Assembly: GCF_008329945.1 (NCBI RefSeq)
Contig: NZ_CP035807.1
Location: 806,001-870,000, forward strand
Source: Thiospirochaeta perfilievii
Lineage (GTDB): Bacteria > Spirochaetota > Spirochaetia > DSM-2461
DNA length: 64,000 nt
Reading direction: 5' to 3'
In this document: positions 9,368 through 54,459 of the stretch, in pieces
Layout: every line of letters starts with the position of its first letter
Position numbering within the stretch: the first letter of the stretch is position 1
The notes under the pieces: generated by a model
What the model saw: only the letters and a program-made list of their open reading frames with translations
The model's database searches: none
Told to the model about the DNA's origin: nothing
Translations under genes and position numbers: made by a program

Positions 9368-11098
9368 ATGAATAATAAGCCTATACTTAAAAGATTTACA
9401 AACTACTACAAACCCCATAAAAGAATTTTCTTTATTGACCTATTTTGTGCACTATCAATAGCCATAATAGACCTATTATATCCAGCTTTTACTAGAACAA
9501 TTCTCCAGGATATACTACCTGAAGGAAATCTAAACAGCCTATTTACTCTATTAGCACTATTATTAGGTCTATATATTATTAGATGTTTTCTCGACTTTGT
9601 GGTTCTATACTGGGGACACATAATGGGTGTCTATATGGAAAGTGACATGAGAAGGGACCTATTTAACCATCTACAAAAACTACCCTTTAAGTTTTACGAT
9701 AACAATAGAACTGGAGAGCTTATGTCCAGGGTTGTTAATGATTTAAACGAAGTTTCAGAATTAGCCCACCATGGTCCTGAGGATATCTTCCTCTCTGTTG
9801 TTATGTTATTAGGTTCTTTTATATATTTAGTTCAGGTAGAGTGGCATTTAGCTGTCTTAATTTTCTGTATTATGATCCCACTAATTCTTTGGTTTACAAT
9901 AACAAGACGATCTAGCCTTGGTAAATCCTGGGCTACTGTTCGGGTTAAAATGGGAGAGATCAATTCAAGCCTTGAGAACTCTATTGCTGGAATTAGAGTA
10001 GCTAGAGCATTTACAAATGAGTTATTTGAGAAGTTACGTTTTAACAAGTCCAATAATGATTTTAGAGGGGCTAAAAGAGGGGCTTATAAATCCATGGCCC
10101 ACTTCCACGTAGGTGTAACCTTTTTAATGACACTTTTAAATATTGTTGTTTTAGCTGTTGGTGGTTATATGGTTTTTAAGGAGAGTATCGATATCCCTGA
10201 CCTACTAGCTTTTATGCTCTACATAAACCTTGTAATTGAACCTATTAAACGGTTCACAGGTTTTACTCAGCAGTATGAGAAGGGTATGGCAGGATTTAGA
10301 AGATTTTGTGACATTATGGATCAAGAACCAGATATTATAGATAGGGATGATGCTATAGAGTTAATAAATCCAAAGGGGAATATTGAACTTAATAATGTTA
10401 CATTTAGTTATGATGATGAAAATCATATACTATCTGATATAAACCTACATATTCCATCAGGTAAAACTGTAGCAATTGTAGGACCAACAGGTGCTGGAAA
10501 AACAACCCTATGCCATCTTATACCCAGATTTTACGAGGTTAATAGTGGATGTGTAAACATTGATGGTATTGATATAAGAGATACAACCCTATCTAGTTTA
10601 AGGAAGTCTGTTGGTTTTGTGCAACAGGATGTATTCCTATTTACTGGTACAATTAAAGAGAACATCTTATACGGAAGACCAGATGCAACAGATAGTGAGA
10701 TTAAAGAAGCTGCTCTAAAGGCAGAAATTGACGATTTTATAACCTCCCTTGATAATGGTTATGATACATGGATTGGAGAGAAGGGTATTTTACTCTCTGG
10801 GGGACAAAAACAGAGATTAGCAATTGCTAGGGCCTTTCTAAAAAATCCTCCTATTCTTATTTTAGATGAAGCAACATCCGCATTAGATAATCAGACAGAG
10901 AGAAAGATTCAAAAAGCACTAGAAGAGTTAAGCAGGGGAAGAACTACTCTGGTTATTGCCCATAGACTCTCTACTGTAAGGCATGCGGATAAAATTGTTG
11001 TATTAACTACAGATGGAATTGAAGACCAAGGAACACATGATGAACTTTTTGATAGGGATGGCCTATATAGGAATCTATACAATTCCCAATTTGTATAA
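9368..11098 (+). CDS. ABC exporter, fused permease and ATPase half-transporter
   Basis: A 576-residue protein with an N-terminal six-helix type IV exporter domain (about 1-310) and a C-terminal ATPase. The ATPase has Walker A GPTGAGKTT, Q-loop VQQDVFLF, signature LSGGQKQR, Walker B LILDEATSALD with the catalytic Glu, and the H-loop IAHRLST. All ATPase motifs are intact, so a homodimer of the MsbA/BmrA type is likely. The substrate is unknown; lipids or drugs are typical. The gene stands alone between a leaderless-type promoter and a hairpin at 11104-11130. Compare the heterodimeric pair at 32288-36216, whose ATP sites are asymmetric. Confidence 0.92.
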   Translation: MNNKPILKRFTNYYKPHKRIFFIDLFCALSIAIIDLLYPAFTRTILQDILPEGNLNSLFTLLALLLGLYIIRCFLDFVVLYWGHIMGVYMESDMRRDLFNHLQKLPFKFYDNNRTGELMSRVVNDLNEVSELAHHGPEDIFLSVVMLLGSFIYLVQVEWHLAVLIFCIMIPLILWFTITRRSSLGKSWATVRVKMGEINSSLENSIAGIRVARAFTNELFEKLRFNKSNNDFRGAKRGAYKSMAHFHVGVTFLMTLLNIVVLAVGGYMVFKESIDIPDLLAFMLYINLVIEPIKRFTGFTQQYEKGMAGFRRFCDIMDQEPDIIDRDDAIELINPKGNIELNNVTFSYDDENHILSDINLHIPSGKTVAIVGPTGAGKTTLCHLIPRFYEVNSGCVNIDGIDIRDTTLSSLRKSVGFVQQDVFLFTGTIKENILYGRPDATDSEIKEAALKAEIDDFITSLDNGYDTWIGEKGILLSGGQKQRLAIARAFLKNPPILILDEATSALDNQTERKIQKALEELSRGRTTLVIAHRLSTVRHADKIVVLTTDGIEDQGTHDELFDRDGLYRNLYNSQFV

Positions 11099-11103
11099 AA
11101 AAA

Positions 11104-11130
11104 TAGCCGACTAATTAATAATAGTCGGCT
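11104..11130 (+). terminator. Hairpin, probable terminator after the ABC exporter
   Basis: AGCCGACTA and TAGTCGGCT form a perfect 9-bp stem with a 9-nt loop right after the stop codon. The tail (CTATATCTTT) is only moderately T-rich, so termination may be weak. Confidence 0.6.
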
Positions 11131-11249
11131 CTATATCTTTAGGGGTAACTACCCCATAACATTGGATAGGGTTTTTAAATATTTCATAAAAAACTCCTTA
11201 TCTATAGCTAATTATATTACTATTATTAAGATTAATAAATAGATAAAAA

Positions 11250-11268
11250 ATGTCTTGCATCAGGACAT
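11250..11268 (+). promoter_or_regulatory. TetR operator candidate, copy 1 (upstream of -35)
   Basis: ATGTC-N9-GACAT palindrome 5 bp upstream of the TTGACA box. An identical half-site pair with the same spacing occurs at 11299-11317. Confidence 0.65.
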
Positions 11269-11272
11269 TATA

Positions 11273-11300
11273 TTGACATATCTCCATTGTAGGGTAAAAT
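11273..11300 (+). promoter_or_regulatory. Promoter of the TetR-GH3 operon
   Basis: TTGACA (11273-11278), 16-bp spacer and TAAAAT (11295-11300), ending 6 nt before the ATG at 11307. The mRNA is therefore probably leaderless. An extra GACAT half-site overlaps the -35 box. Confidence 0.65.
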
Positions 11301-11317
11301 GTCTCTATGAATGACAT
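11299..11317 (+). promoter_or_regulatory. TetR operator candidate, copy 2 (over -10 and start codon)
   Basis: Second ATGTC-N9-GACAT palindrome, starting at the end of the -10 box and covering the start codon. A repressor bound here would block initiation. Confidence 0.65.
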
Positions 11318-11975
11318 TAATATCTTCTATAATGAAACACCAACAAGATCAAAAACAAGAAAATCCATTCTATCTAATAGCTTAGAGCTATTTACATCTA
11401 AGGGGATTGAGTCTGTCTCTATGGCTGAAATTAGTAAACTGTGTGGTATTACTACTAGAAATTTATACCGTTACTACTCTTCTAAGGAGTTTTTAGTAGT
11501 TGATTCTACCTATGAAATATTTTTTAGAAGTATAAATACTCCACTTGATACCTCCTTTAATCAATTAACAGGTATAAAACAGTTAAAGGTTTTAATGTTT
11601 AATCTTATACATCTAAACCAAACAAAAGAGGATGAGATAGCATTTACTAAATATATTATGTATTTCGATATATATATATCTACCCTTTCCAAGGATCACC
11701 CTGCATTTATAAAATATACAAAGGAGTATCTACCACTAATTGAGAGTAGTAAGTCTACATCCATTAAAAATGCTTTAAAAAAGGGAATAGCTGATAGGTC
11801 CATACTTATACATGAGGAGGAGATAACCCTCTATGATACATATATTACCCAATCAATATTTAGCCTTATCATGCGAATTAATATAAAAGAGTATGAAAAT
11901 GAATCAATTAATCCAAAACTTATTTACAAACATATTGAGATAATTTTAAACCATTTAGGAGTTAATAATGAGTGA
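11307..11975 (+). CDS. TetR-family repressor controlling the adjacent GH3 gene
   Basis: A 222-residue protein with an N-terminal TetR helix-turn-helix (SNSLELFTSKGIESVSMAEI, CGITTRNLYRYYSSKE) and an all-helical ligand-binding remainder without a recognised subfamily. It is first in a two-gene operon and overlaps the beta-glucosidase start by 8 bases, so translational coupling is likely. Two identical ATGTC-N9-GACAT palindromes flank and overlap its promoter, a layout typical of autoregulation. The effector is probably a sugar or glycoside given the partner gene, but that is inference. Confidence 0.9.
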   Translation: MNDINIFYNETPTRSKTRKSILSNSLELFTSKGIESVSMAEISKLCGITTRNLYRYYSSKEFLVVDSTYEIFFRSINTPLDTSFNQLTGIKQLKVLMFNLIHLNQTKEDEIAFTKYIMYFDIYISTLSKDHPAFIKYTKEYLPLIESSKSTSIKNALKKGIADRSILIHEEEITLYDTYITQSIFSLIMRINIKEYENESINPKLIYKHIEIILNHLGVNNE

Positions 11976-28880: not shown

Positions 28881-29963
28881 ATGAGAAAGTACAATATAAT
28901 AGTAATTTTAATAGTAGTAGCTATTGGTTTTCCTATATTTTCAAAGGGAAACAAGGATAGTTATAAACCTGAAATAGAGGGGGTTTTACCTCCTAATACC
29001 AGTGGGGAATATATAAAACCTAGTATCAAAGAGTTACAAGAGAGGTTAACAAATATCCAATTTTTAGTTACACAAAAAAACTCAACAGAGAGAGCATATA
29101 ATAATAGATACTGGGACAACCACGATGAAGGAATCTATGTGGATATAGTTTCTGGGGAACCCCTATTTAGTTCTACAGATAAGTTTGACTCAGGCACAGG
29201 ATGGCCAAGTTTTACTAAACCCTTAGAACCCACAAATATAGTTAACTTAGAGGATAAAAGCTACAATTTAACAAGGGTTGAAGTAAGAAGTCTATATGCA
29301 GACTCCCACCTGGGACACCTTTTTTCTGATGGTCCAAAACCTACTGGGAATAGATACTGTATAAATTCTGCATCCCTTCTTTTTATACCAAAGGATGAAT
29401 TAAAGAGTTCAGGTTACGGTTATTACCTATATCTTTTTAATGATATAGAGTTTGAGACAGCTGTTTTTGCGGGAGGTTGTTTTTGGGGTGTAGAAGCTAT
29501 TTTTGAATCTATAAATGGTGTTATAGATGTTAAATCCGGTTACTCTGGTGGTAAAAAAAGCAGTGCTAATTATAAGAGTGTAAGTTCAGGCCTAACAAAA
29601 CATGCAGAAGCGGTTTTAGTTGAGTTTGATCCTAGTATAATTACTTATAATCAACTTTTAGAGGTATTTTTTAGAGTTGCCCATGATCCCACACAATTAA
29701 ATTATCAAGGTCCAGATAAGGGTCCTCAATATAGGTCCCAGATATTTTACACTAACAATTATCAGAGGGATAAGGCCAAGGATTATATAAAAAGTTTAGA
29801 AGATGATGTAGTTACTCTACTATCTAAATTAGAAGAGTTTTATGTGGCAGAGACATACCATCAAGATTTTTTAAAATTAAACCCAAATAATCCATATATT
29901 CTTTACTGGGATATGCCTAAACTAGATCATTTAAAAAGGGAGTTTCCAGAACTTTTAAAATAA
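28881..29963 (+). CDS. msrBA: Exported bifunctional MsrB-MsrA
   Basis: A 360-residue protein with an N-terminal signal or anchor ([18 protein letters not shown]) and a linker of about 30 residues. An MsrB domain follows (GWPSF; catalytic Cys160 in NRYCINSAS), then an MsrA domain (Cys200 in [25 protein letters not shown]). Unlike the cytosolic copy at 517-1347, its MsrB half lacks both zinc CxxC pairs, a known variant form. It should repair methionine sulfoxide in envelope proteins, with electrons from DipZ encoded immediately upstream. This resembles a split version of Neisseria PilB (Trx-MsrA-MsrB). AGGAGG precedes the ATG. Confidence 0.93.
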
Positions 29964-36222: not shown

Positions 36223-36249
36223 AGGGGGGAAGTACCCCTCCCCTCTTTT
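36223..36249 (+). terminator. Probable terminator after the ABC exporter pair
   Basis: AGGGGGG and CTCCCCT-type arms form a GC-rich hairpin followed by CTTTTA. It lies between convergent genes and may serve both. Confidence 0.55.
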
Positions 36250-37615
36250 ATATGTAATCCTCTACACTTCCTCCATTTAGATTTATTATCTCTAATAGTG
36301 TTAAATAGAGCTCTCCATATATGTTATTAATATCTTTTTGTCTATTTAGAAGCTCTAACTCTACTGTTTTAACATTAATCTGTGTAGAAGAACCAATTTC
36401 TAATAACTCCTTCTCCCTATCTAAAAGTATTTCATCATACTCAATATTCTTTTTAAGGAGGGAGATCTTATCCTTTAATAACTTAACCTTAGAGTTTAAT
36501 ATTCTATTATTATCATTTACATTTTTTTGTGACTCAAGTAGTGACTCTCTAGCAATTTTAATAGCAGTATCATCCACATTTATACTCTGTTTTTTACTTC
36601 CACCATCTAAAATATTAATGTTAACTCCTAAGCCAAAGTTAATATCTAAATCACTATTAGTTTTGAAATAAACACTTAAAGTTGGCGCATCAATTATTCG
36701 ATTTAACTTTTTATTTAAAATTTGCTTCTCTAACTCTAATAAAGCTTTTTTCTCGTTACTGTTTTGGGATTCTTTAACTACAGTTGAGGTTTCTATACCC
36801 TCTAGAATATTTAGATCAAAAGTATAATCCTTTACCCTCTCTAAACCTAACAATCTCTCCAAGTTTATCTCGGCCATTTCTAAATTGTATTTAACATCAA
36901 AAAGACTCTCCTCCTGCTTAGCTACATCAAGTTCTAACGCAAGAAGATCAGAAGATGATATTCTACCAACCTCTCTATCATCCCTAGCCATAACAACTCT
37001 CTCTTGGGCTATATCTAAACCCTTTGATAGTAGATCAATACTATTTCTTAAAATATTTATATTCTGTATCGATGTTAAAACAGTAATAATTAACTGATTC
37101 CTTGTACCAACTTCGTTTAGTTCTGCAATTTCATGACTTATCTCGGATTTCCGTAAACTACTTTTAAATAGTTTAAAATCTATAATTTTGTTATTAGCTA
37201 GTATTGGTTGACGTAGACTAAACTCCAAAGATGGGGTCTGGGATGTATCCCAATCCCCAGTACTTGATTTAGTTAAACGATAGATATCACTTAAACCAAT
37301 CGAGAGACTACCTCCTGTGGATATATTCTGGGTTAGTAGAAGCTTACCAGATAGAGTCTGGGTTTCCGAATTAATATTAGAATAGCCGTATAGAGGTGAT
37401 GAAAATGTGTCTGTAGTAAATGTTAGGTTAGGTTTTGAACTACTTAAAACACCTTCATATACGGATTTAGCAATATCACTATTATATTTAGAAACCTTAA
37501 CCGTATAGTTGTTTTTTACTAAAAGTTGAATAACATCCTTAGGGGTTAATGTTTTCTCATTGGAAAATAGTATGGAACAAAGACCTAATAGTATTAATAA
37601 ATATGTTTTTTTCAT
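36248..37615 (-). CDS. TolC-family outer membrane efflux protein
   Basis: A 455-residue protein with a signal peptide (TYLLILLGLCSILFSNEK) and two long alpha-helical coiled-coil repeats typical of TolC/OMF proteins (for example LSKGLDIAQERVVMARDDRE and KDKISLLKKNIEYDEILLDR). It would form the trimeric outer-membrane tunnel for the RND pump. It is the last gene of a three-gene operon and its ATG overlaps the pump stop codon by 4 bases. Confidence 0.9.
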   Translation of the reverse strand: MKKTYLLILLGLCSILFSNEKTLTPKDVIQLLVKNNYTVKVSKYNSDIAKSVYEGVLSSSKPNLTFTTDTFSSPLYGYSNINSETQTLSGKLLLTQNISTGGSLSIGLSDIYRLTKSSTGDWDTSQTPSLEFSLRQPILANNKIIDFKLFKSSLRKSEISHEIAELNEVGTRNQLIITVLTSIQNINILRNSIDLLSKGLDIAQERVVMARDDREVGRISSSDLLALELDVAKQEESLFDVKYNLEMAEINLERLLGLERVKDYTFDLNILEGIETSTVVKESQNSNEKKALLELEKQILNKKLNRIIDAPTLSVYFKTNSDLDINFGLGVNINILDGGSKKQSINVDDTAIKIARESLLESQKNVNDNNRILNSKVKLLKDKISLLKKNIEYDEILLDREKELLEIGSSTQINVKTVELELLNRQKDINNIYGELYLTLLEIINLNGGSVEDYI

Positions 37616-40600
37616 TTTTTTCCTTCCTTATCAAATAGAGCTCCATATACAAGTGGTATTACAATTAGTGCTGTTAAGGTAGAGAATATCAATCCAAAAA
37701 TAATTGATCCAGCCATAGGACTCCAAACAACTGACTTTCCCCCTATTCCAATAGCTGTAGGTAAAAGACCTGCAATTGTTGTTAAAGATGTTAATAGTAT
37801 TGGCCTTAACCTTGTCTCTGCAGATTCAATTATTGCATCTCTAACACTGTACCCCTTCTCCCTTAACTCATTTATAAAGCTTAGTAAAACAATAGAGTCA
37901 TTAACGGCTATACCAGCTAGTGCAACACCAGAATATAAAACAGTAGTCGAAAATGGAGTTTTAGAAATAAATAGGTAGAGTATAACCCCTGCAAAAGCGA
38001 AGGGAATTGTTAAAATTATTAAAAAAGGTTGAATATAGGATTTAAACTGTGCTCCTAAAATAAGATATATTAAAAATAGACCTATTAAAAATACTCGTAA
38101 AATCTGAAATAGAAGATTACCTAAATCTGCAAACTCCCCTCCTACAACAAGTTCTATTTCAGGATATCTATTTTGTAATTCCTCCTGAAAGTAGCTTTTT
38201 ATATCCCTATTTATATCCTTTACACTATCATTAGAGTACGCCTCACTCTCAATTGTAACCTCCCTTTTACCATCAACTCGTTTTATACCACCTAGAGCGT
38301 TTCCCTGAACAATATTTGCTACAGAAGAGAATGGTATCAATCTACCATCTGGTAAAGGTATCATTAATTCATCTATATAAGTTAAAGATAGCTCTTCATC
38401 ATTATTATATCTAACAATAACTTCGACCTCTTTGTTATCCTTGAAAAATGTTGTTGCTGTTCTACCCTCTACACTATCTCTTAAAAATGAACCTAGGGTT
38501 AAAACATCCAATCCTAGTGCAGAGGCCCTATCCTCGTTTAGTTTAACTCTTAACTCAGGACTTCCCTTCTCAAGATTGTTCTCTATATTATAAAGGTCAG
38601 AATAGTTACTTAGTCTACCTATAATAGAGTTAGAGGCACTAATTAGATTATCATAATTCTCCCCAAAGAGTCTAAAAGAGATAGGTTTAGATGTGGGAGG
38701 ACCATTTGTAGCCTTACTAAACTTAACATTTTCAGCTCCTGGTATATTTATAGTTTCCCATTGAACCTCATTCATAATATCAGTTATAGATCTTGTTCTA
38801 CCCTGGGTTCTCTCAGATAGATCAACCACTATTTGGGATACATTTGATCTGCTTGTATTACCACTACTTCCAGAGGAGAAACCAACAGATGAGATAACTG
38901 ACACAATCTCACCATTACCAACTAATGGAAGAATCTTCTTTTCGAACTCTTTAGTTATATCATTAGTTTTAGATATAGGGGTTCCTGGAGACATTTCGAT
39001 ATCTATATAAAAAAGTGTAAAATCCTCGGCACTAAAAAGATCCTGATTAAGTAGAGGGACTAGACTAAATGCAGCTACAACAACTAGAAAAAGCATGGGT
39101 AGAACAATCTTTTTTTTACTATAAACACTTTTTATTAAACTCTTGAATCCGTTCTGAAACCTTGTGAATCTCTGGAAAACAACACTCTCTTTTTTCCCGT
39201 GGGGCCAGTCAGCATAGTGGGATGGAATAAATACTATTGCTTCAAATGTAGATGCAATTAAAGCTATTGATACTGTAAATGGGATTACTCTTAAGAACTT
39301 ACCTATTGTTCCAGGTAGAATCATTAATGGAAGAAAGGCTGCTACTGTAGTTCCTGTTGCGGCTATAACTGGGATAACAACTTGATTTACCCCCTGGATT
39401 GCAGCCTCTTTTCTACTTAATCCTCCATGTTGTAGTCTAAAACTATTCTCTGTTATTACTATAGCATGGTCTACAATTAATCCTAGAACCAAAACCATTC
39501 CAAATAGAGTATTTGTATTAAAAGTCTCTCCAAAATACTCTAAAACCACAAAGGTTATAGCAAATGTAACAGGAATACCAAGGGCTGTAATCATAGCATT
39601 CCTAAACCCTACAAAAAATAGTAGAATTATTACTAATAAAATCAGACCAAATATAGCATTGTTTAATAGAACATTAATACTATCCTTTATTTGAATAGTA
39701 GAGTCCCCTGAAAGGGTGATCTTAAGACCAACAGGCAGTTTTTTTTCAAGATCTTCGATCTCTTTCTTAACACCCTCTATTACACCAACTGAGTTTCCCC
39801 GTGGGATTTTAGATACTCTTAAGGCGATAGAAGTCTCTCCGTTAAACCTAGAGATAATTCCCTTTGGATCATAGGTATCTAAAACTGTTGCAATATCGCT
39901 AACTTTTACGACACTACTATTAGACTCACCTCTTCTTACAATTACCCTATTAAAATTCTCTATATTATCCAACTCTCCTACTGTTCTAAGTAGATAATCT
40001 CTGGATTCTGTCTCTAGGGTTCCTCCTGGAACATTTACATTTTGTAGGGAGACTGCACGAACTATTTCATTTATTGAGATACCTAAGCTATTTAACTTTA
40101 GCCTATTAGCCTCAATTACAACCTGTTTCTCCCGTAACCCAATAATATCAACACCTGAAACTTCAGGAACACTCTTTATCCTATTCTCTAAAAGTGTTGC
40201 CTCGTTGGCTAATACATCATAGGAGGAATCACCAGATATTATCACCTCTATGACAGGGAGAAAGTCCGATGAGGAGAAGTCATCTATTAAAGCAGGAAGA
40301 GTTCCATCCGGAAGAAGGACCTTGCTAAATCTTGTTCTAACATCTTGAAAGAGGGACTCAAAGTCACTATTTGATATACCGTCATCAAACTCTACCCTAA
40401 CAACACTTAAACCCTCTGAACTTACAGACTGAATTGTTTTTAATTTATCAATAGACTTAAGCTCATTCTCTACAGGTATGGTAACACTTTTTTCAATATC
40501 TTCAGCTGATACTCCAGGGTATGGAACAATTACATTTACCCAAAAAAAAGGGACCTCGGAAAACTGCTCCCTAGGGAGTTTATTTAGGCTTAAAAAACCT

Positions 40601-40671
40601 AATACAAGAATTGTAACAATTGCTATATTTATAAGAACTGGGTTTCTTACAGAAAATTTACCTATACTCAT
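37612..40671 (-). CDS. RND-family efflux pump (AcrB/HAE1-like)
   Basis: About 1019 residues with 12 helices, two large periplasmic loops and RND motifs (RNPVLINIAIVTILV start, PGVSAEDIEKSVTIPVE, FGMVLVLGLIVDHAIVITEN, LAGIAVNDSIVLL). In the proton relay of helix 4 the motif is VDH, so the first Asp is kept while the second position is His. It should export hydrophobic or amphiphilic compounds from the inner membrane or periplasm. The frame opens at a GTG (40677), but ATG at 40671 has GGAG six bases before it and makes a 4-base ATGA overlap with the adaptor stop. Confidence 0.93.
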   Translation of the reverse strand: MSIGKFSVRNPVLINIAIVTILVLGFLSLNKLPREQFSEVPFFWVNVIVPYPGVSAEDIEKSVTIPVENELKSIDKLKTIQSVSSEGLSVVRVEFDDGISNSDFESLFQDVRTRFSKVLLPDGTLPALIDDFSSSDFLPVIEVIISGDSSYDVLANEATLLENRIKSVPEVSGVDIIGLREKQVVIEANRLKLNSLGISINEIVRAVSLQNVNVPGGTLETESRDYLLRTVGELDNIENFNRVIVRRGESNSSVVKVSDIATVLDTYDPKGIISRFNGETSIALRVSKIPRGNSVGVIEGVKKEIEDLEKKLPVGLKITLSGDSTIQIKDSINVLLNNAIFGLILLVIILLFFVGFRNAMITALGIPVTFAITFVVLEYFGETFNTNTLFGMVLVLGLIVDHAIVITENSFRLQHGGLSRKEAAIQGVNQVVIPVIAATGTTVAAFLPLMILPGTIGKFLRVIPFTVSIALIASTFEAIVFIPSHYADWPHGKKESVVFQRFTRFQNGFKSLIKSVYSKKKIVLPMLFLVVVAAFSLVPLLNQDLFSAEDFTLFYIDIEMSPGTPISKTNDITKEFEKKILPLVGNGEIVSVISSVGFSSGSSGNTSRSNVSQIVVDLSERTQGRTRSITDIMNEVQWETINIPGAENVKFSKATNGPPTSKPISFRLFGENYDNLISASNSIIGRLSNYSDLYNIENNLEKGSPELRVKLNEDRASALGLDVLTLGSFLRDSVEGRTATTFFKDNKEVEVIVRYNNDEELSLTYIDELMIPLPDGRLIPFSSVANIVQGNALGGIKRVDGKREVTIESEAYSNDSVKDINRDIKSYFQEELQNRYPEIELVVGGEFADLGNLLFQILRVFLIGLFLIYLILGAQFKSYIQPFLIILTIPFAFAGVILYLFISKTPFSTTVLYSGVALAGIAVNDSIVLLSFINELREKGYSVRDAIIESAETRLRPILLTSLTTIAGLLPTAIGIGGKSVVWSPMAGSIIFGLIFSTLTALIVIPLVYGALFDKEGKK

Positions 40672-41756
40672 AACCACTCTCCACTACTTCCAATTATAGT
40701 AGAATTAACCTTAATTCCAGGTTTAATACTATTAAGTCCGCTAATAATTATAGTTTCATTCTCACTTAGCTGGGTTTTAGGATCAATTGATGTTCTACTT
40801 CCAACCACCTCACCCTTTATTATCTCCCTTGGTTCAGCTACTCCATTATTTTCTACAAAAATATACTCTTTCCCCTCTCGCACTACAATGGAGTCTGTAG
40901 GAACAATATAAAGAGCATTTGTATCGTTTGTTTCAATTGTGACAGAGCAACTCATCCCTGCTCTAATTACATCCTTTTGACTATTATCTGCCTCTACAAT
41001 AACTTTGTAACTACCAGTTGATGCATCACTACCTGCCGCTATTGCAACAACATTTCCAATAAGAGGTTGACTATTTTTTATAGAGACAAGCTTTATATTT
41101 ACCTTACTATTAAGTTTAATTAATCCTATCTGTCTCTCCCCTAAAGAGACCTCTACTCTAATTTTTGAAAGATCTACAATCTTAGCAATTTTTTGACCTT
41201 GATTAAGAAAGTTTCCCTGGGTAACACCACTATCCTTCCATGCTACTGCACCAAAGATTGGAGATTTTATAGATGCATCCTCTACTGTTTTTAGAGCTGT
41301 TTCATAGAGAACTTTTGCTCCATTGGCAGAACTTCTAGCTCTAGTTAAATCCGAAAGGGATGCAGAACCTTTTTTATAAAACTTCTCTGTACTTACTAAG
41401 TCTAAATCGGCATTTTCAAACTGCTCCTTAGCCTGTTCTAGGGACAGCTTTGCAATAGAATTATCTACATTAACTAGAACTTCTGTTGTGTCTACCTCTT
41501 CCCCAATTTCAAAATCTACACTCTCAATTATACCCCTGGTTTCAGAGATAATATATGCCTCTTTTATACCTGAAATTAAACCAGAGGATGTAACAGTTGG
41601 GTATAATACTCCCTTTGTTAGGTTTAAAGATTCAACGGCGACAACTGTATCACTTTTATCCATATCCCATGTTGCCGAAGATAAATCATCTACTTCCTTT
41701 GAACAGGAAAAGGCTACAGTAAGGATTATTATATTTAATATCATTTTCTTTAACAT
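40668..41756 (-). CDS. RND periplasmic adaptor lipoprotein (MFP family)
   Basis: A 362-residue membrane fusion protein. The signal peptide ends ILTVAFSC (lipid-anchored Cys, Val at -4, Phe at -2). A split lipoyl domain surrounds a helical hairpin (EQFENADLDLVSTEKFYKKG, ARSSANGAKVLYETALKTVE), followed by a beta-barrel (EVSLGERQIGLIKLNSKVNI) and a membrane-proximal domain. It links the RND pump to TolC. It heads the efflux operon, 100 bases from the divergent XRE-CarH-like regulator gene, the likely controller. Confidence 0.92.
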   Translation of the reverse strand: MLKKMILNIIILTVAFSCSKEVDDLSSATWDMDKSDTVVAVESLNLTKGVLYPTVTSSGLISGIKEAYIISETRGIIESVDFEIGEEVDTTEVLVNVDNSIAKLSLEQAKEQFENADLDLVSTEKFYKKGSASLSDLTRARSSANGAKVLYETALKTVEDASIKSPIFGAVAWKDSGVTQGNFLNQGQKIAKIVDLSKIRVEVSLGERQIGLIKLNSKVNIKLVSIKNSQPLIGNVVAIAAGSDASTGSYKVIVEADNSQKDVIRAGMSCSVTIETNDTNALYIVPTDSIVVREGKEYIFVENNGVAEPREIIKGEVVGSRTSIDPKTQLSENETIIISGLNSIKPGIKVNSTIIGSSGEWL

Positions 41757-41821
41757 TTACTACTCCTTTTATTCTATAGATAAAGAATAATACACAATCC
41801 GTGATTAGTAAACCTATTAGA

Positions 41822-41850
41822 TTGATAAATATCACTTAATGTGTTAAAAT
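41822..41850 (+). promoter_or_regulatory. Leaderless promoter of the XRE-B12 regulator, in the shared divergent region
   Basis: TTGATA (41822-41827), 17-bp spacer, TAAAAT (41845-41850), 6 nt to the ATG at 41857. GTGAT (41801-41805) and ATCAC (41831-41835) form an inverted pair in the region, a weak operator candidate. Confidence 0.6.
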
Positions 41851-41856
41851 AAGAGT

Positions 41857-42735
41857 ATGGAAAGTAAAAGTAGCTTTGGGGAAAGATTTAAGACCCTAAG
41901 AAAGAGTAAAAAGCTTACACAAAAAGAGGTAGCTAAAGAACTAGGCCTAGGTCAATCTGCTATTGCAAACTATGAACAAGGTACTAGATTCCCTGATGAG
42001 AAGACTCTAAGGCAGATAACAAAATATTTTAATACATCTTTAGACTATCTAATGAATATTAAAACAGAGGGTACTGATATTAAAAATAGAGTTGAAATAA
42101 GTTCCCTGTTTACTAAATATAAAAAACTAATTCTTTCAAATAAATTCCCGGAAGCTCTAAAGCTAATTTTAAATGCCCAAGACAGTGGGATAGATATTAT
42201 TGAAATTTTTAATAGTATTTTCCTCCCCCTCTTAAAACACACTGGAGAGTTATGGGAGTGCTCCATTATAGATGTGGCCAAAGAGCATTTAATTTCAGAG
42301 GAGTTAGAGAGAACAATAGTTATTTTAACTTATAGATCAAAAACAAAAGAGCTAAAAAACATAAGATGTGTTTGTGCGACTCCTGGAGGAGAGTTACACC
42401 GAATATCCATAAGAATAGTTTCTGAAATATTAAAGAGAGAGGGATATCCCACATGGTTCTTAGGTGTAAATACTCCAACAAAGGATATAATTGAACTTTG
42501 TAAGAAAAATAGTATAGATTTTTTAATACTATCATCAACAATGCCCTCATCTATAGATTCAGCTAATAATATAATCTATGGTATTCGATTAGATAAATCC
42601 CTAGATAACTGTAAAATAATAGTTGGAGGTCCAGCTTATGAGAAGGATAGAAGAGCAGAAAAAGTAACTAGGGCAGATTTTGTTATAAATAACCTGCAAG
42701 GGATAGTAGATACTGTTAATAATCTAGCTAACTAA
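41857..42735 (+). CDS. XRE-type regulator with CarH-like cobalamin-binding photosensor domains
   Basis: A 292-residue protein. Residues 7-66 are a Cro/C1-type HTH (LTQKEVAKELGLGQSAIANY). Residues about 80-160 form a B12-binding helical bundle containing Trp133-X9-Glu143-His144 (WECSIIDVAKEH), the motif that in CarH photoreceptors caps the adenosyl group of AdoCbl. Residues about 168-290 are a Rossmann B12 domain: GGELHRISIRI has the E-x-H pattern with His181 as possible lower ligand, then FLGVNTP and VGGPAYE. CarH and LitR have MerR-type HTHs, so the XRE HTH is unusual. Glu134 stands where T. thermophilus CarH has the light-state His. It diverges from the RND efflux operon. Confidence 0.88.
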   Translation: MESKSSFGERFKTLRKSKKLTQKEVAKELGLGQSAIANYEQGTRFPDEKTLRQITKYFNTSLDYLMNIKTEGTDIKNRVEISSLFTKYKKLILSNKFPEALKLILNAQDSGIDIIEIFNSIFLPLLKHTGELWECSIIDVAKEHLISEELERTIVILTYRSKTKELKNIRCVCATPGGELHRISIRIVSEILKREGYPTWFLGVNTPTKDIIELCKKNSIDFLILSSTMPSSIDSANNIIYGIRLDKSLDNCKIIVGGPAYEKDRRAEKVTRADFVINNLQGIVDTVNNLAN

Positions 42736-42742
42736 GGAAGTT

Positions 42743-44962
42743 TTAAAAGTCTCTCCTGCCACTTATATGGTGTTCACTCTGTTGTATCCTATGCTGATTC
42801 TCTAACTGTATAGTAAAATATAGACTTGCAATTGCCATAGTAGGAGAGATATCTCTCTTTCTAAAGTGTATTATCTCTAACCTAAGAGGTTCAAATGGTT
42901 CTAATAACTTAAACTCTCTACACCGTTTTGAAGACCAGGACCAAATTTTATAATAATTCTTTTCAGATAGATAACAATGGAGTTCTGCAAGCTCTTTATC
43001 TGTAACCTTTATGTCATACAACTCCTCTAAAATAGTGTTAAACCCAGACTCTATATCGATATTTAAATCATAAAAGAATTCATCTATTGGTGGTGTAAAA
43101 TTTAACCTTGTACAGCCAATATTAATTAGAGTCTGTTGGAATCTAAAACTAGCCTTCTCTTTAATAAGTAGAAAAATACTACTCCAGTAATTACCATTAT
43201 TCTCTATTAAACTAATTGCAATAATAAGGTTAATATAGGTTCTTACATCCAAATTTTTAAGCTTTAACATATCAATAATCTCCCTATGAAAGCTAAAGTC
43301 ATTTACCCTTGCTAAGGATTTTGCAGCAATAGATTTTACATAGGGATACTTCTCTTTAAAAATTTTCCTTAAAACAGTTTTAGATCTCTCATCATCATAG
43401 GCACCTAGGGCAAAAATAGCACTCTGTCTCCACCATGATAGCTTATCCTGGGCCTCCTCTATAATCTCATCTAGAAGCTCATACCTTGGATAAGAGAAAA
43501 GAGATCTGATTACCATCTCCTTATCCTTAAGGTTGGACAACTTTAACCTTTTTTGTATCTCCTCGGTTGCTAACATTGTATCATCCGACTCTAATTCAAC
43601 TAAAATAAGTTGTTTTTTTACTTTGTCACTTGTTCTATTTAACTTATCTAAATTATGAATAGTCTTTCTATTTTTTGGACTTATTAGAGTTAATAAAAAC
43701 TCAAATGCTGTTAAACAACCCTTCTCTCCAATAAAAAAAGATATAATAAAATTAAAAGTAGCTAAAAATGCCATTAATAAAAAACTCAAACTATACTCAT
43801 TATTTAGTTCTAAACTTAGCACTGTAGGAAGATCTGCTAAAAAACCACCTAGAATTCCAATAATTAAGGATATAAAAGAGAAGACAACAGCCAAAGAGGA
43901 TGTAAAACCGATTCGATCTCCCTCGGGTATTGAGTTTATTATTAAACGATCTAAAAGTAGACGAATCATACCTATAAAATACATTGAGATAATACCTAAA
44001 ACAAAAAAGAGGATGGGATTTGTTGTAGGTTTTGAGATACTCCAGACTATAGATATAATAATTATTATTAAGTTAACAGGTATTAATAAGGGTTTACTTC
44101 CAAAGCGATCTAAAAAAGGTCTAGCCGTCCTACTAGCAAAGATAACCCCTAGGAAGTTTATCATAGTGTATATAAATATAATATTTGAATTTATATTAAC
44201 CTCTTTTTTAAGGAATGGGATGGAGAAGTTAAACAGGACAAAAAGGGACATTCCCCCACAATATAATAAAATAATCAAAAATGTCTGTTTTTGTTTTAAG
44301 TATAACCTAAATGTAAAAAAAGCCTCTCTAAGGCTTCTTTTTGGAATAGACTCCCTAATTGGAACTTTTATTATTGCAAAAGATGCAAAGGTATTTAATA
44401 TAAAACCCAGTAATAAAAGGGACAAAATTCCTAGTAGTTCATTGCTTTTAAAAAATGTTAATGCTGAAAAACTAATAAACCTTGATAACATCATAGAGGA
44501 GTATAAGATTATAATGATTAGGGATGTATAATCACCTCTGTTTGTTGGTTTTGTTATACAACTCTGAATTACATGATTTAATGGGTAAGCTATATTTCTA
44601 AACAGACAGTAGAGAGTGTATACTACAATAATTACATAAACAGATATCCTATTTGGTAAAAAGGGTGTTAATCCATAAAAGATAGTAATACCACCTCTAA
44701 GTAACCAGGCAATAAAGAATAATTTTATAATTCTTGTATTTGGGAATAAAATAGGAACAAAAAATACTACTATCCCTGTTAAATATACTGCGGATGAAAT
44801 ATAACCTAATTGCATATTACTTGCACCAAAATTTAATGCCATTAGATATATAATTGTTTCTGCTAAAAAACTGTAACTTAGACCATTTATAAAAGTATAT
44901 TTAATATAACTTTTTTGGCCTATTTCCTTCTCTTTTCTTGATAGAAAATTATTATATTCCAT
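42743..44962 (-). CDS. MFS transporter fused to C-terminal HEAT-like repeats
   Basis: A 739-residue protein. Residues 1 to about 420 form 12 membrane helices of MFS type (FGASNMQLGYISSAVYLTGI, RPFLDRFGSKPLLIPVNL). After it comes a cytosolic region with HEAT/PBS-like helical pairs (DKLSWWRQSAIFALGAYDDE, FKEKYPYVKSIAAKSLARVN). HEAT repeats bind proteins, so the transporter may be regulated by or scaffolded to a partner. The substrate is unknown. It ends eight bases from the convergent XRE-B12 gene. Confidence 0.8.
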   Translation of the reverse strand: MEYNNFLSRKEKEIGQKSYIKYTFINGLSYSFLAETIIYLMALNFGASNMQLGYISSAVYLTGIVVFFVPILFPNTRIIKLFFIAWLLRGGITIFYGLTPFLPNRISVYVIIVVYTLYCLFRNIAYPLNHVIQSCITKPTNRGDYTSLIIIILYSSMMLSRFISFSALTFFKSNELLGILSLLLLGFILNTFASFAIIKVPIRESIPKRSLREAFFTFRLYLKQKQTFLIILLYCGGMSLFVLFNFSIPFLKKEVNINSNIIFIYTMINFLGVIFASRTARPFLDRFGSKPLLIPVNLIIIIISIVWSISKPTTNPILFFVLGIISMYFIGMIRLLLDRLIINSIPEGDRIGFTSSLAVVFSFISLIIGILGGFLADLPTVLSLELNNEYSLSFLLMAFLATFNFIISFFIGEKGCLTAFEFLLTLISPKNRKTIHNLDKLNRTSDKVKKQLILVELESDDTMLATEEIQKRLKLSNLKDKEMVIRSLFSYPRYELLDEIIEEAQDKLSWWRQSAIFALGAYDDERSKTVLRKIFKEKYPYVKSIAAKSLARVNDFSFHREIIDMLKLKNLDVRTYINLIIAISLIENNGNYWSSIFLLIKEKASFRFQQTLINIGCTRLNFTPPIDEFFYDLNIDIESGFNTILEELYDIKVTDKELAELHCYLSEKNYYKIWSWSSKRCREFKLLEPFEPLRLEIIHFRKRDISPTMAIASLYFTIQLENQHRIQQSEHHISGRRDF

Positions 44963-53184: not shown

Positions 53185-53866
53185 AAAGATAGTATATTGG
53201 GGGTATTAATATTGCCGGTAGATAATTAGCAGTTTTAATTTTTTTTATGTTTAATAAATTTAGTCCTAGGCTAAAAATTAAAATTCCACCTATTATAGAT
53301 ATCTCCCTAATTGTCTCCACTGTTAAAACAGGCTCAATAAACTTTGCAAGAAGTGTAATACTCCCCTGATATATTAAAACAGCAATAGATGAGAAAATTA
53401 CCCCTATACCAAGTGTGGATGTCAAAATAATTGATGTAACCCCATCTAATACAGATTTTGCATATAACATATCGTGTTTACCCTGTAGTCCACTCTCTAG
53501 GGATCCAAGAATAGCCATTGTTCCTACACAAAAAATCAGACTAGCTGTAACAAAGCCCTTAGCAATATTGTGTTCGCCCCCTCTTCCTACTCTATTTTGA
53601 AGAGAGTCTCCCAATCTGTTTAGTCTAAGATCAATATCGATAAACTCACCAATTAAACCGCCGATAACAATTGAAATTATAAAGAGTATAGGTTCTCCAC
53701 CATTTAAAATTCCATTAAGTGTTGTTGACATTCCAATAAATAGGACAGATAACCCAACACCATTCATTACAATAGTTTTATACTTCTCTTTTAAACCATT
53801 TTTAATTAATAGACCCAAAATAGATCCTAGAATTATAACAAGAGTATTTACATATGTTCCTAACAT
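53177..53866 (-). CDS. DUF554 family membrane protein
   Basis: A 229-residue protein with about seven helices. The start MLGTYVNTLVIILGSILGLL and the central GFVTASLIFCVGTMAILGSL match DUF554 (YdfK-like) proteins, possible transporters of unknown substrate. It shares one base with the cobO stop (TAATG), so it is co-translated with cobO. Confidence 0.88.
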   Translation of the reverse strand: MLGTYVNTLVIILGSILGLLIKNGLKEKYKTIVMNGVGLSVLFIGMSTTLNGILNGGEPILFIISIVIGGLIGEFIDIDLRLNRLGDSLQNRVGRGGEHNIAKGFVTASLIFCVGTMAILGSLESGLQGKHDMLYAKSVLDGVTSIILTSTLGIGVIFSSIAVLIYQGSITLLAKFIEPVLTVETIREISIIGGILIFSLGLNLLNIKKIKTANYLPAILIPPIYYLFI

Positions 53867-54459
53867 TAAAATTCTATTCCTTTTTGTGCCTTAATACCAG
53901 ATTCAAATGCATGCTTTATCATTACCATCTCAGTTACTGTATCTGCAATTTCTATTACTTCACTAGGAGCATTTCTACCAGTTAAGATTATATTTAGTGA
54001 GTCAGGTTTATTAGCTAATACCTCTACAACCTCTTTTATATCTAAAAACTTATATGCTAAGGCTAAGTTTATCTCATCAAGAACTAGCAGTTGAAACTTA
54101 TTATCTTTATCCCGGCATATCTCCTTTGCAACTTCCCAGCCCTTAAGAGCAGCTAAAATATCCTTCTCTTTATCCTGGGTATCCCATGTGAATCCAGCTC
54201 CTGAGACAATATGGGTAATAGATTCGAATTTTTTAAATATATTCATCTCTCCTGTTGTCCAGGAACCTTTAATAAATTGAATTACTGCAACATTTAACCC
54301 CTGTCCAACGGCACGAAATACTGTACCAAAGGCGGATGAACTTTTACCCTTTCCATCACCTGTATTTACTATAATTATACCCCTATCAATAGAGGCATTT
54401 TTAACCTTATTACTCTGTGTCTCTTTTAACTCTTTCATTTTATCTTTATAGGAATCCAC
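53866..54459 (-). CDS. cobO: Cob(I)yrinic acid a,c-diamide adenosyltransferase (CobO/BtuR)
   Basis: A 197-residue P-loop enzyme with RGIIIVNTGDGKGKSSSAFG, VAVIQFIKGSW, LLVLDEINLALAY and LILTGRNAP-type segments (here NIILTGRNAPSEVIE). It adenosylates cobalamin or cobyrinate to give the AdoCbl form. No other cobalamin biosynthesis genes are in the window, so it may serve salvage. It matters for the XRE-CarH-like regulator at 41857, whose light-sensitive ligand would be AdoCbl. It is co-transcribed with DUF554 and perhaps with the DUF2202 gene 68 bases upstream. Confidence 0.93.
   Translation of the reverse strand: MDSYKDKMKELKETQSNKVKNASIDRGIIIVNTGDGKGKSSSAFGTVFRAVGQGLNVAVIQFIKGSWTTGEMNIFKKFESITHIVSGAGFTWDTQDKEKDILAALKGWEVAKEICRDKDNKFQLLVLDEINLALAYKFLDIKEVVEVLANKPDSLNIILTGRNAPSEVIEIADTVTEMVMIKHAFESGIKAQKGIEF

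Follow-up and report, generated by a model that had tools for sequence, protein, structure and literature searches.

A regulator encoded in a 64,000-nucleotide stretch of the Thiospirochaeta perfilievii genome (hereafter the window) consists, by its sequence, of a Cro/C1-type (XRE) HTH joined to a CarH-type cobalamin domain, and there is a reasonable likelihood that in the dark it uses AdoCbl to repress its own gene (xre) and a divergent RND efflux operon, and that light lifts this repression. The fusion had been proposed from the DNA letters, and it is borne out by Pfam and by an alignment of homologues; the open reading frame is exact (+ strand, 292 residues), and W133-x9-E143-H144, E179-x-H181 and Glu134 each stand at the positions given in the original prediction. 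The features on which the analysis rests are collected in Table 1.

Table 1. Features of the regulator locus and of cobO, in window coordinates
Feature	Coordinates	Strand	Remarks
TolC-type outer-membrane efflux protein, third operon gene	36248..37615	-	Pfam OEP
RND permease (AcrB-type)	37612..40677	-	Pfam ACR_tran 2e-190; conserved neighbour
RND membrane fusion protein, first gene of the divergent operon	40668..41756	-	Pfam HlyD_3, HlyD_D23; SD AAGGAG at 41763-41768
Predicted RND-operon -10 (TATTAT)	41787..41792	-	Directly adjoins palindrome 1; similar layout in L039, L042, L076
Operator-like palindrome 1, CACAATCCGTG (- strand: CACGGATTGTG)	41793..41803	.	Abuts the RND-operon -10
Predicted xre promoter, TTGATA-17-TAAAAT	41822..41850	+	-10 at 41845-41850; consensus match alone not above shuffle expectation
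Operator-like palindrome 2, CACTTAATGTG	41833..41843	.	Lies in the -35/-10 spacer of the xre promoter
XRE-CarH-like regulator CDS	41857..42735	+	292 aa; intact ORF, full-length homologues exist
Cro/C1-type (XRE) HTH, residues 6-67	41872..42057	+	Pfam HTH_19/HTH_3; ImmR DNA-binding domain 7t8i, E 1e-9
Helical-bundle cobalamin subdomain, residues 87-152	42115..42312	+	Pfam B12-binding_2; holds G130, W133, E134, E143, H144
G130 codon	42244-42246	+	
W133 codon	42253-42255	+	
E134 codon	42256-42258	+	
E143 codon	42283-42285	+	
H144 codon	42286-42288	+	
Rossmann cobalamin subdomain, residues 170-277	42364..42687	+	Pfam B12-binding; holds H181, GVNTP 203-207
H181 codon	42397-42399	+	Predicted lower Co ligand
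cobO, ATP:corrinoid adenosyltransferase	53866..54459	-	Pfam PF02572 3e-63

Domain architecture and the light-type signature

The head of the regulator is matched by the Pfam models HTH_19 (residues 8-67, E 2.5e-15) and HTH_3 (residues 12-65, E 9.3e-15), the HTH being of Cro/C1 type with no MerR-type winged HTH found, and the sensory part is matched by B12-binding_2 (residues 87-152, E 2.1e-7) and B12-binding (residues 170-277, E 5.6e-14). By sequence search, the nearest solved chains are those of CtMerR (8JBS), a photocobilin (8J2W) and CarH (5C8A), and, for the head, ImmR (7T8I). The NCBIfam CarH equivalog NF052513 is matched by the cobalamin part alone, and its cut-off is missed (52.6 bits against 400); the corrinoid methyltransferase models of the MtbC/MtaC type also remain below their curated cut-offs (pyl_corrinoid, 53.9 against 215; MtbC, 40.5 against 350). 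The single-sequence AlphaFold2 model of the regulator was poor (pLDDT 43), and Foldseek with that model gave no useful match; by profile match, the family profile covers both subdomains of 8JBS and 5C8A.

Light-responsive cobalamin domains have been described by the elements GxxW, EH, GxxH and GxxxP, a signature that has been verified in four proteins and rests on association, few of its bearers having been tested (Yu et al. 2024, PMC11796333); a cobalamin domain lacking it showed no binding of AdoCbl or MeCbl (PMC11796333). All four elements are present in the regulator, as GELW (130-133), EH (143-144), GELH (178-181) and GVNTP (203-207), the glycine of GxxW and the GxxxP element being additions to the motifs listed originally. 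The pocket residues W133 and E143-H144 and the lower-ligand residue H181, on whose conservation the original prediction had staked itself, are all present and are invariant in 15 homologues.

Full-length XRE-cobalamin fusions were found in 14 further genomes in a search of 60 relatives, in approximately 32 genomes of the class out of a sample of 297 (our own tally of matches that span HTH and cobalamin domain alike) and, outside the class, in 3 of 348 genomes of a phylum that includes a Lachnospiraceae genome. A single-protein search of genome contigs returned HTH relatives only, and viral contigs gave two matches, both restricted to the HTH and including a LexA/CI-like repressor. The first 15 homologues, with 21-38% identity to the window protein, were aligned, and the only invariant residues of the sensory part are G130, W133, E143, H144, S147, H181, G203, P207, S226 and G258; by sequence, this set is made up of the light-signature residues together with the SxL and GG positions commonly seen in cobalamin domains. 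GxxW-x9-EH is retained in 29 of 31 XRE fusions and is absent from all five methyltransferase-type control domains (MetH- or MtbC-like). Invariance at such identities, together with this absence from the controls, places the conservation of the motif far beyond chance.

Against the family profile, the verified light sensors (CtMerR, 3e-26; SasPcob, 2e-20; AbDPcob, 5e-19; TtCarH, 5e-18) outscore methionine synthase (3e-15). In the domain tree, the XRE fusions form one weakly supported group (53/65), apart from MerR-type CarH (66/71) and from the methyltransferase domains (100/99). Weak as it is, this grouping would rather suggest an independent origin of the family, in which an XRE head was fused to a light-type domain, than a recent exchange of the head on CarH. 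The loci L020, L021 and L103 encode standalone cobalamin-domain proteins that share the light signature and have a further N-terminal region; the L103 locus also encodes a hybrid histidine kinase.

In TtCarH the light-state ligand is His132; the regulator has Glu134 at this position, and a His after the Trp occurs in none of the 31 XRE homologues. The corresponding residue is Arg in CtMerR, Gln in SasPcob and Tyr in AbDPcob, and CtMerR, without the His, still passes from an AdoCbl tetramer to a monomer in the light (PMC11796333), so that the caution about Glu134 expressed in the original prediction was correct but does no damage to it. As TtCarH H132A stays mostly tetrameric (PMC10442372) whereas CtMerR switches, the route must differ when the His is missing. 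Since there is no His at position 134, the light end state would probably be aquo/hydroxo-cobalamin, by analogy with CtMerR, and not the bis-His adduct of T. thermophilus CarH.

Gene neighbourhoods and cofactor supply

The neighbour genes of 15 homologues were clustered. An RND permease and a membrane fusion protein adjoin the regulator in 11 of the 15 genomes, that of the window included; the pair is divergent in six of these (again with the window) and lies downstream on the same strand in five, and RND genes are not adjacent to the other four homologues. A DNA photolyase gene (Pfam DNA_photolyase) stands beside or near the regulator in four genomes of two genera (L040 and L041; L051 and L052), and the 4-base overlap of the photolyase and regulator ORFs in L040 and L041 suggests that they form one operon. 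PF00875 photolyases occur in 7 of 18 surveyed genomes, being the regulator-linked copy in four of them. A RudS-type gene (2-thiouracil desulfurase plus DUF1722; TudS-DUF1722) is located near the regulator in L045, L051 and L052; light operons that combine RudS genes with photolyase and LitR have been reported (PMC11417400). Lipocalin and DUF1295 genes are neighbours in L046 and L050. A link to carotenoids was rejected, as phytoene synthase is found in 4 of 18 genomes and never near the regulator gene. Both photolyase and phytoene synthase are absent from the window's own genome; consequently, the light context is missing locally and comes from the relatives, and no target other than the RND operon is evident there.

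Several further arrangements were observed. At L045, a MerR-type CarH is found two genes from the XRE form, the MerR-type and XRE-type genes (L045:7845-8759 and 10606-11544) flanking one DegV/DAK2 gene. A thiol-peroxidase-like gene (by translation) lies directly upstream of the XRE-CarH/RND operon in L048 (8056-8556) and L047 (8061-8561). In the window, the regulator converges on a gene for an MFS transporter fused to HEAT repeats (42743-44962, - strand) with a gap of only 7 bases, and no relative of this gene was present among the homologue neighbourhoods compared.

A supply of AdoCbl in the cell is plausible, since cobO is present, the single cobalamin riboswitch of the genome is located near BtuF-like and BtuC-like uptake genes (by translation), and methionine synthase is encoded. 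CobO had been pointed out at 11 kb from the regulator, and the PF02572 match indeed lies at 11.1 kb, a distance that is by itself no evidence. The window also contains two MsrA-MsrB type methionine sulfoxide reductase fusions (by translation; 517-1347 and 28881-29963), the second of which sits behind a CcdA/thioredoxin-like gene.

The same surroundings could belong to a corrinoid sensor, in which AdoCbl, its absence or its redox state sets RND repression and light plays a minor part in an organism that lives in the dark. The lack of photolyase and phytoene synthase in the regulator's own genome, the corrinoid economy represented by riboswitch-controlled cobalamin uptake and cobO, and the fact that an RND pump is no classical light gene are all in keeping with such a sensor; however, the invariant Trp and Glu-His constitute the adenosyl pocket of light sensors and are absent from the methyltransferase-type domains tested, and photolyase and RudS genes adjoin the regulator gene in relatives. 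We therefore consider a pure corrinoid sensor unlikely. It is less probable still that the cobalamin domain has lost B12 binding and serves as a platform for dimerisation or protein interaction, in the manner of M. xanthus CarA or of class II LitR. B12-independent cases are known among MerR relatives (PMC8156234, PMC9758184), and the XRE-cobalamin fusions L099 and L100, from another phylum, have lost the EH motif with the Rossmann His kept and are possibly B12-independent like CarA; but the binding residues are kept in the window protein and 28 relatives, and drift would have removed them.

Promoters and a candidate operator

The upstream regions of the homologues have in common an 11-bp palindrome, CAC-N5-GTG, located directly before the -10. 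Two such palindromes stand 40 bp apart in the window, one per divergent promoter, and both fall within 41757-41856, the region suggested earlier for footprinting, which was thus well chosen. CAC-N5-GTG has three copies in the window, two of them in the xre/RND intergenic region, and ACACANNNNGTGAT has four copies in the 3.7 Mb genome, two in that same region and two inside ORFs; the latter were rejected as further sites. In the closest homologue (L039, from G001), sites are found at -64 and -24, the same positions as in the window; the first reads CACAAATTGTG-TTATAAT before its RND gene, and the site at -24 is the weaker form AACAAAATGTG. The palindrome pairs of L042 and L076 are 51 and 50 bp apart, respectively.

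In a small hold-out set, strict CAC-N5-GTG was present within 80 bp in 5 of 12 upstream regions, against 0.19 expected. The enrichment occurs with a spacer of 5 only; other spacer lengths never exceeded 1 of 27 upstream regions. The extended motif CAC-N5-GTG-TTAWWWT has 0-3 copies per genome, with one at the xre locus in 9 of 11 tested genomes carrying the gene and none at all in three same-family genomes where the search found no XRE-CarH, although the pattern was read beforehand from part of the scanned genomes and some scans reused the sequences that had suggested it. Its extra copies were considered as second targets, and none of those examined was convincing. Taken together, these patterns make CAC-N5-GTG the probable operator of the regulator.

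The xre -10 is only 6 nt from the ATG in the window and 6-7 nt from it in most relatives from AT-rich genomes, where for the most part no Shine-Dalgarno sequence was seen before xre; with so short a distance and no such sequence, the xre mRNA is probably leaderless. Leaderless mRNA is known for lambda cI transcribed from PRM.

That the regulator is instead an activator, or has its regulon elsewhere with the RND genes as incidental neighbours, would suit the four of 15 homologues lacking them but is the least credible reading, as the RND linkage persists in two gene arrangements, the palindromes between -35 and -10 are in the position of a repressor site, and the extended motif comes close to being unique in each genome, with no plausible second target among the copies examined.

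Proposed mechanism and relation to known systems

Under the favoured reading of a light-released dark repressor, we infer AdoCbl binding, a response to light, a change of oligomer and the direction of control as follows. In the dark, AdoCbl would be held between the helical bundle, with Trp133, Glu143 and His144 round the adenosyl group, and the Rossmann domain, with His181 on the cobalt, and the bound cofactor would keep the regulator oligomeric. The XRE heads would then occupy the two CAC-N5-GTG palindromes at the -10 elements, and both xre and the RND efflux operon would be repressed. Green or blue light would cleave the Co-C bond, the oligomer would loosen, the XRE heads would leave, and the pump and the regulator would be made. 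Given the position of the regulator beside the efflux operon and the two matching sites between them, it probably switches the pump on in the light.

A more extended picture is tentative at best, namely a family of light-sensing repressors apart from MerR-type CarH, in which a lambda-CI-like head is combined with the B12 photoswitch, AdoCbl tetramers bridge two palindromes spaced by approximately 40 or 50 bp between divergent promoters, and an RND pump is released in the light, perhaps to remove photosensitisers. Speculatively, an AdoCbl-held tetramer touching both sites would suit a spacing of approximately 40 or 50 bp; that the pump exports a photosensitiser is a guess.

CarH and class I LitR (T. 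thermophilus, B. megaterium) likewise have a two-part AdoCbl domain with the W, EH and Rossmann His and an N-terminal DNA-binding head, and dark repression is expected in the regulator too. On the other hand, their head is of MerR type, whereas that of the regulator is XRE and no His follows its Trp; their operator consists of 11-bp direct repeats (nAnnTnnACAn), whereas the candidate operator here is an 11-bp palindrome; and the likely target of the regulator, unlike theirs, is an efflux operon. Among solved structures, CtMerR (PDB 8JBS/8JBT; 3e-26) comes closest to the cobalamin domain of the family; it is a light sensor that also has no His at the 132 position but carries a MerR head and falls on a separate, weakly supported branch of the domain tree. 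The photocobilins SasPcob and AbDPcob (8J2W-8J2Y) have the same light signature and a non-His residue at the 132 position; they contain a biliverdin-binding globin domain, which the regulator lacks, and no HTH. With Cro/C1 repressors such as ImmR and P22 c2, the regulator shares the HTH (7t8i, 1e-9; P22 c2) and a palindromic site over its own promoter, features represented here by HTH_3/HTH_19 and by the candidate operator CAC-N5-GTG conserved at promoters; those repressors have a cleavable or phage-type domain, whereas the sensory domain of the regulator is the cobalamin domain.

Fusions of light-type cobalamin domains to HTHs have already been catalogued, with the HTH type unstated (PMC11796333), and of the 37 proteobacterial B12-domain regulators noted in P2TF, 2 lack a MerR head (PMC3532121). 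In the open-access literature, to which our search extended (subscription journals lay outside it), no description was found of an XRE-cobalamin photoreceptor, its operator or an efflux target. The finding is thus new only in part: what would set it apart from known CarH-like sensing is the type of HTH, the palindrome as operator and efflux as the target.

If the proposal is true, B12-based light sensing would have acquired a DNA-binding head of another type, unrelated to the first, and light control would be widened to RND-type efflux. An operator as short and easily predicted as CAC-N5-GTG beside the -10 would offer synthetic biology a CI-type green-light switch, and the family would provide a natural test of light action without the bis-His adduct.
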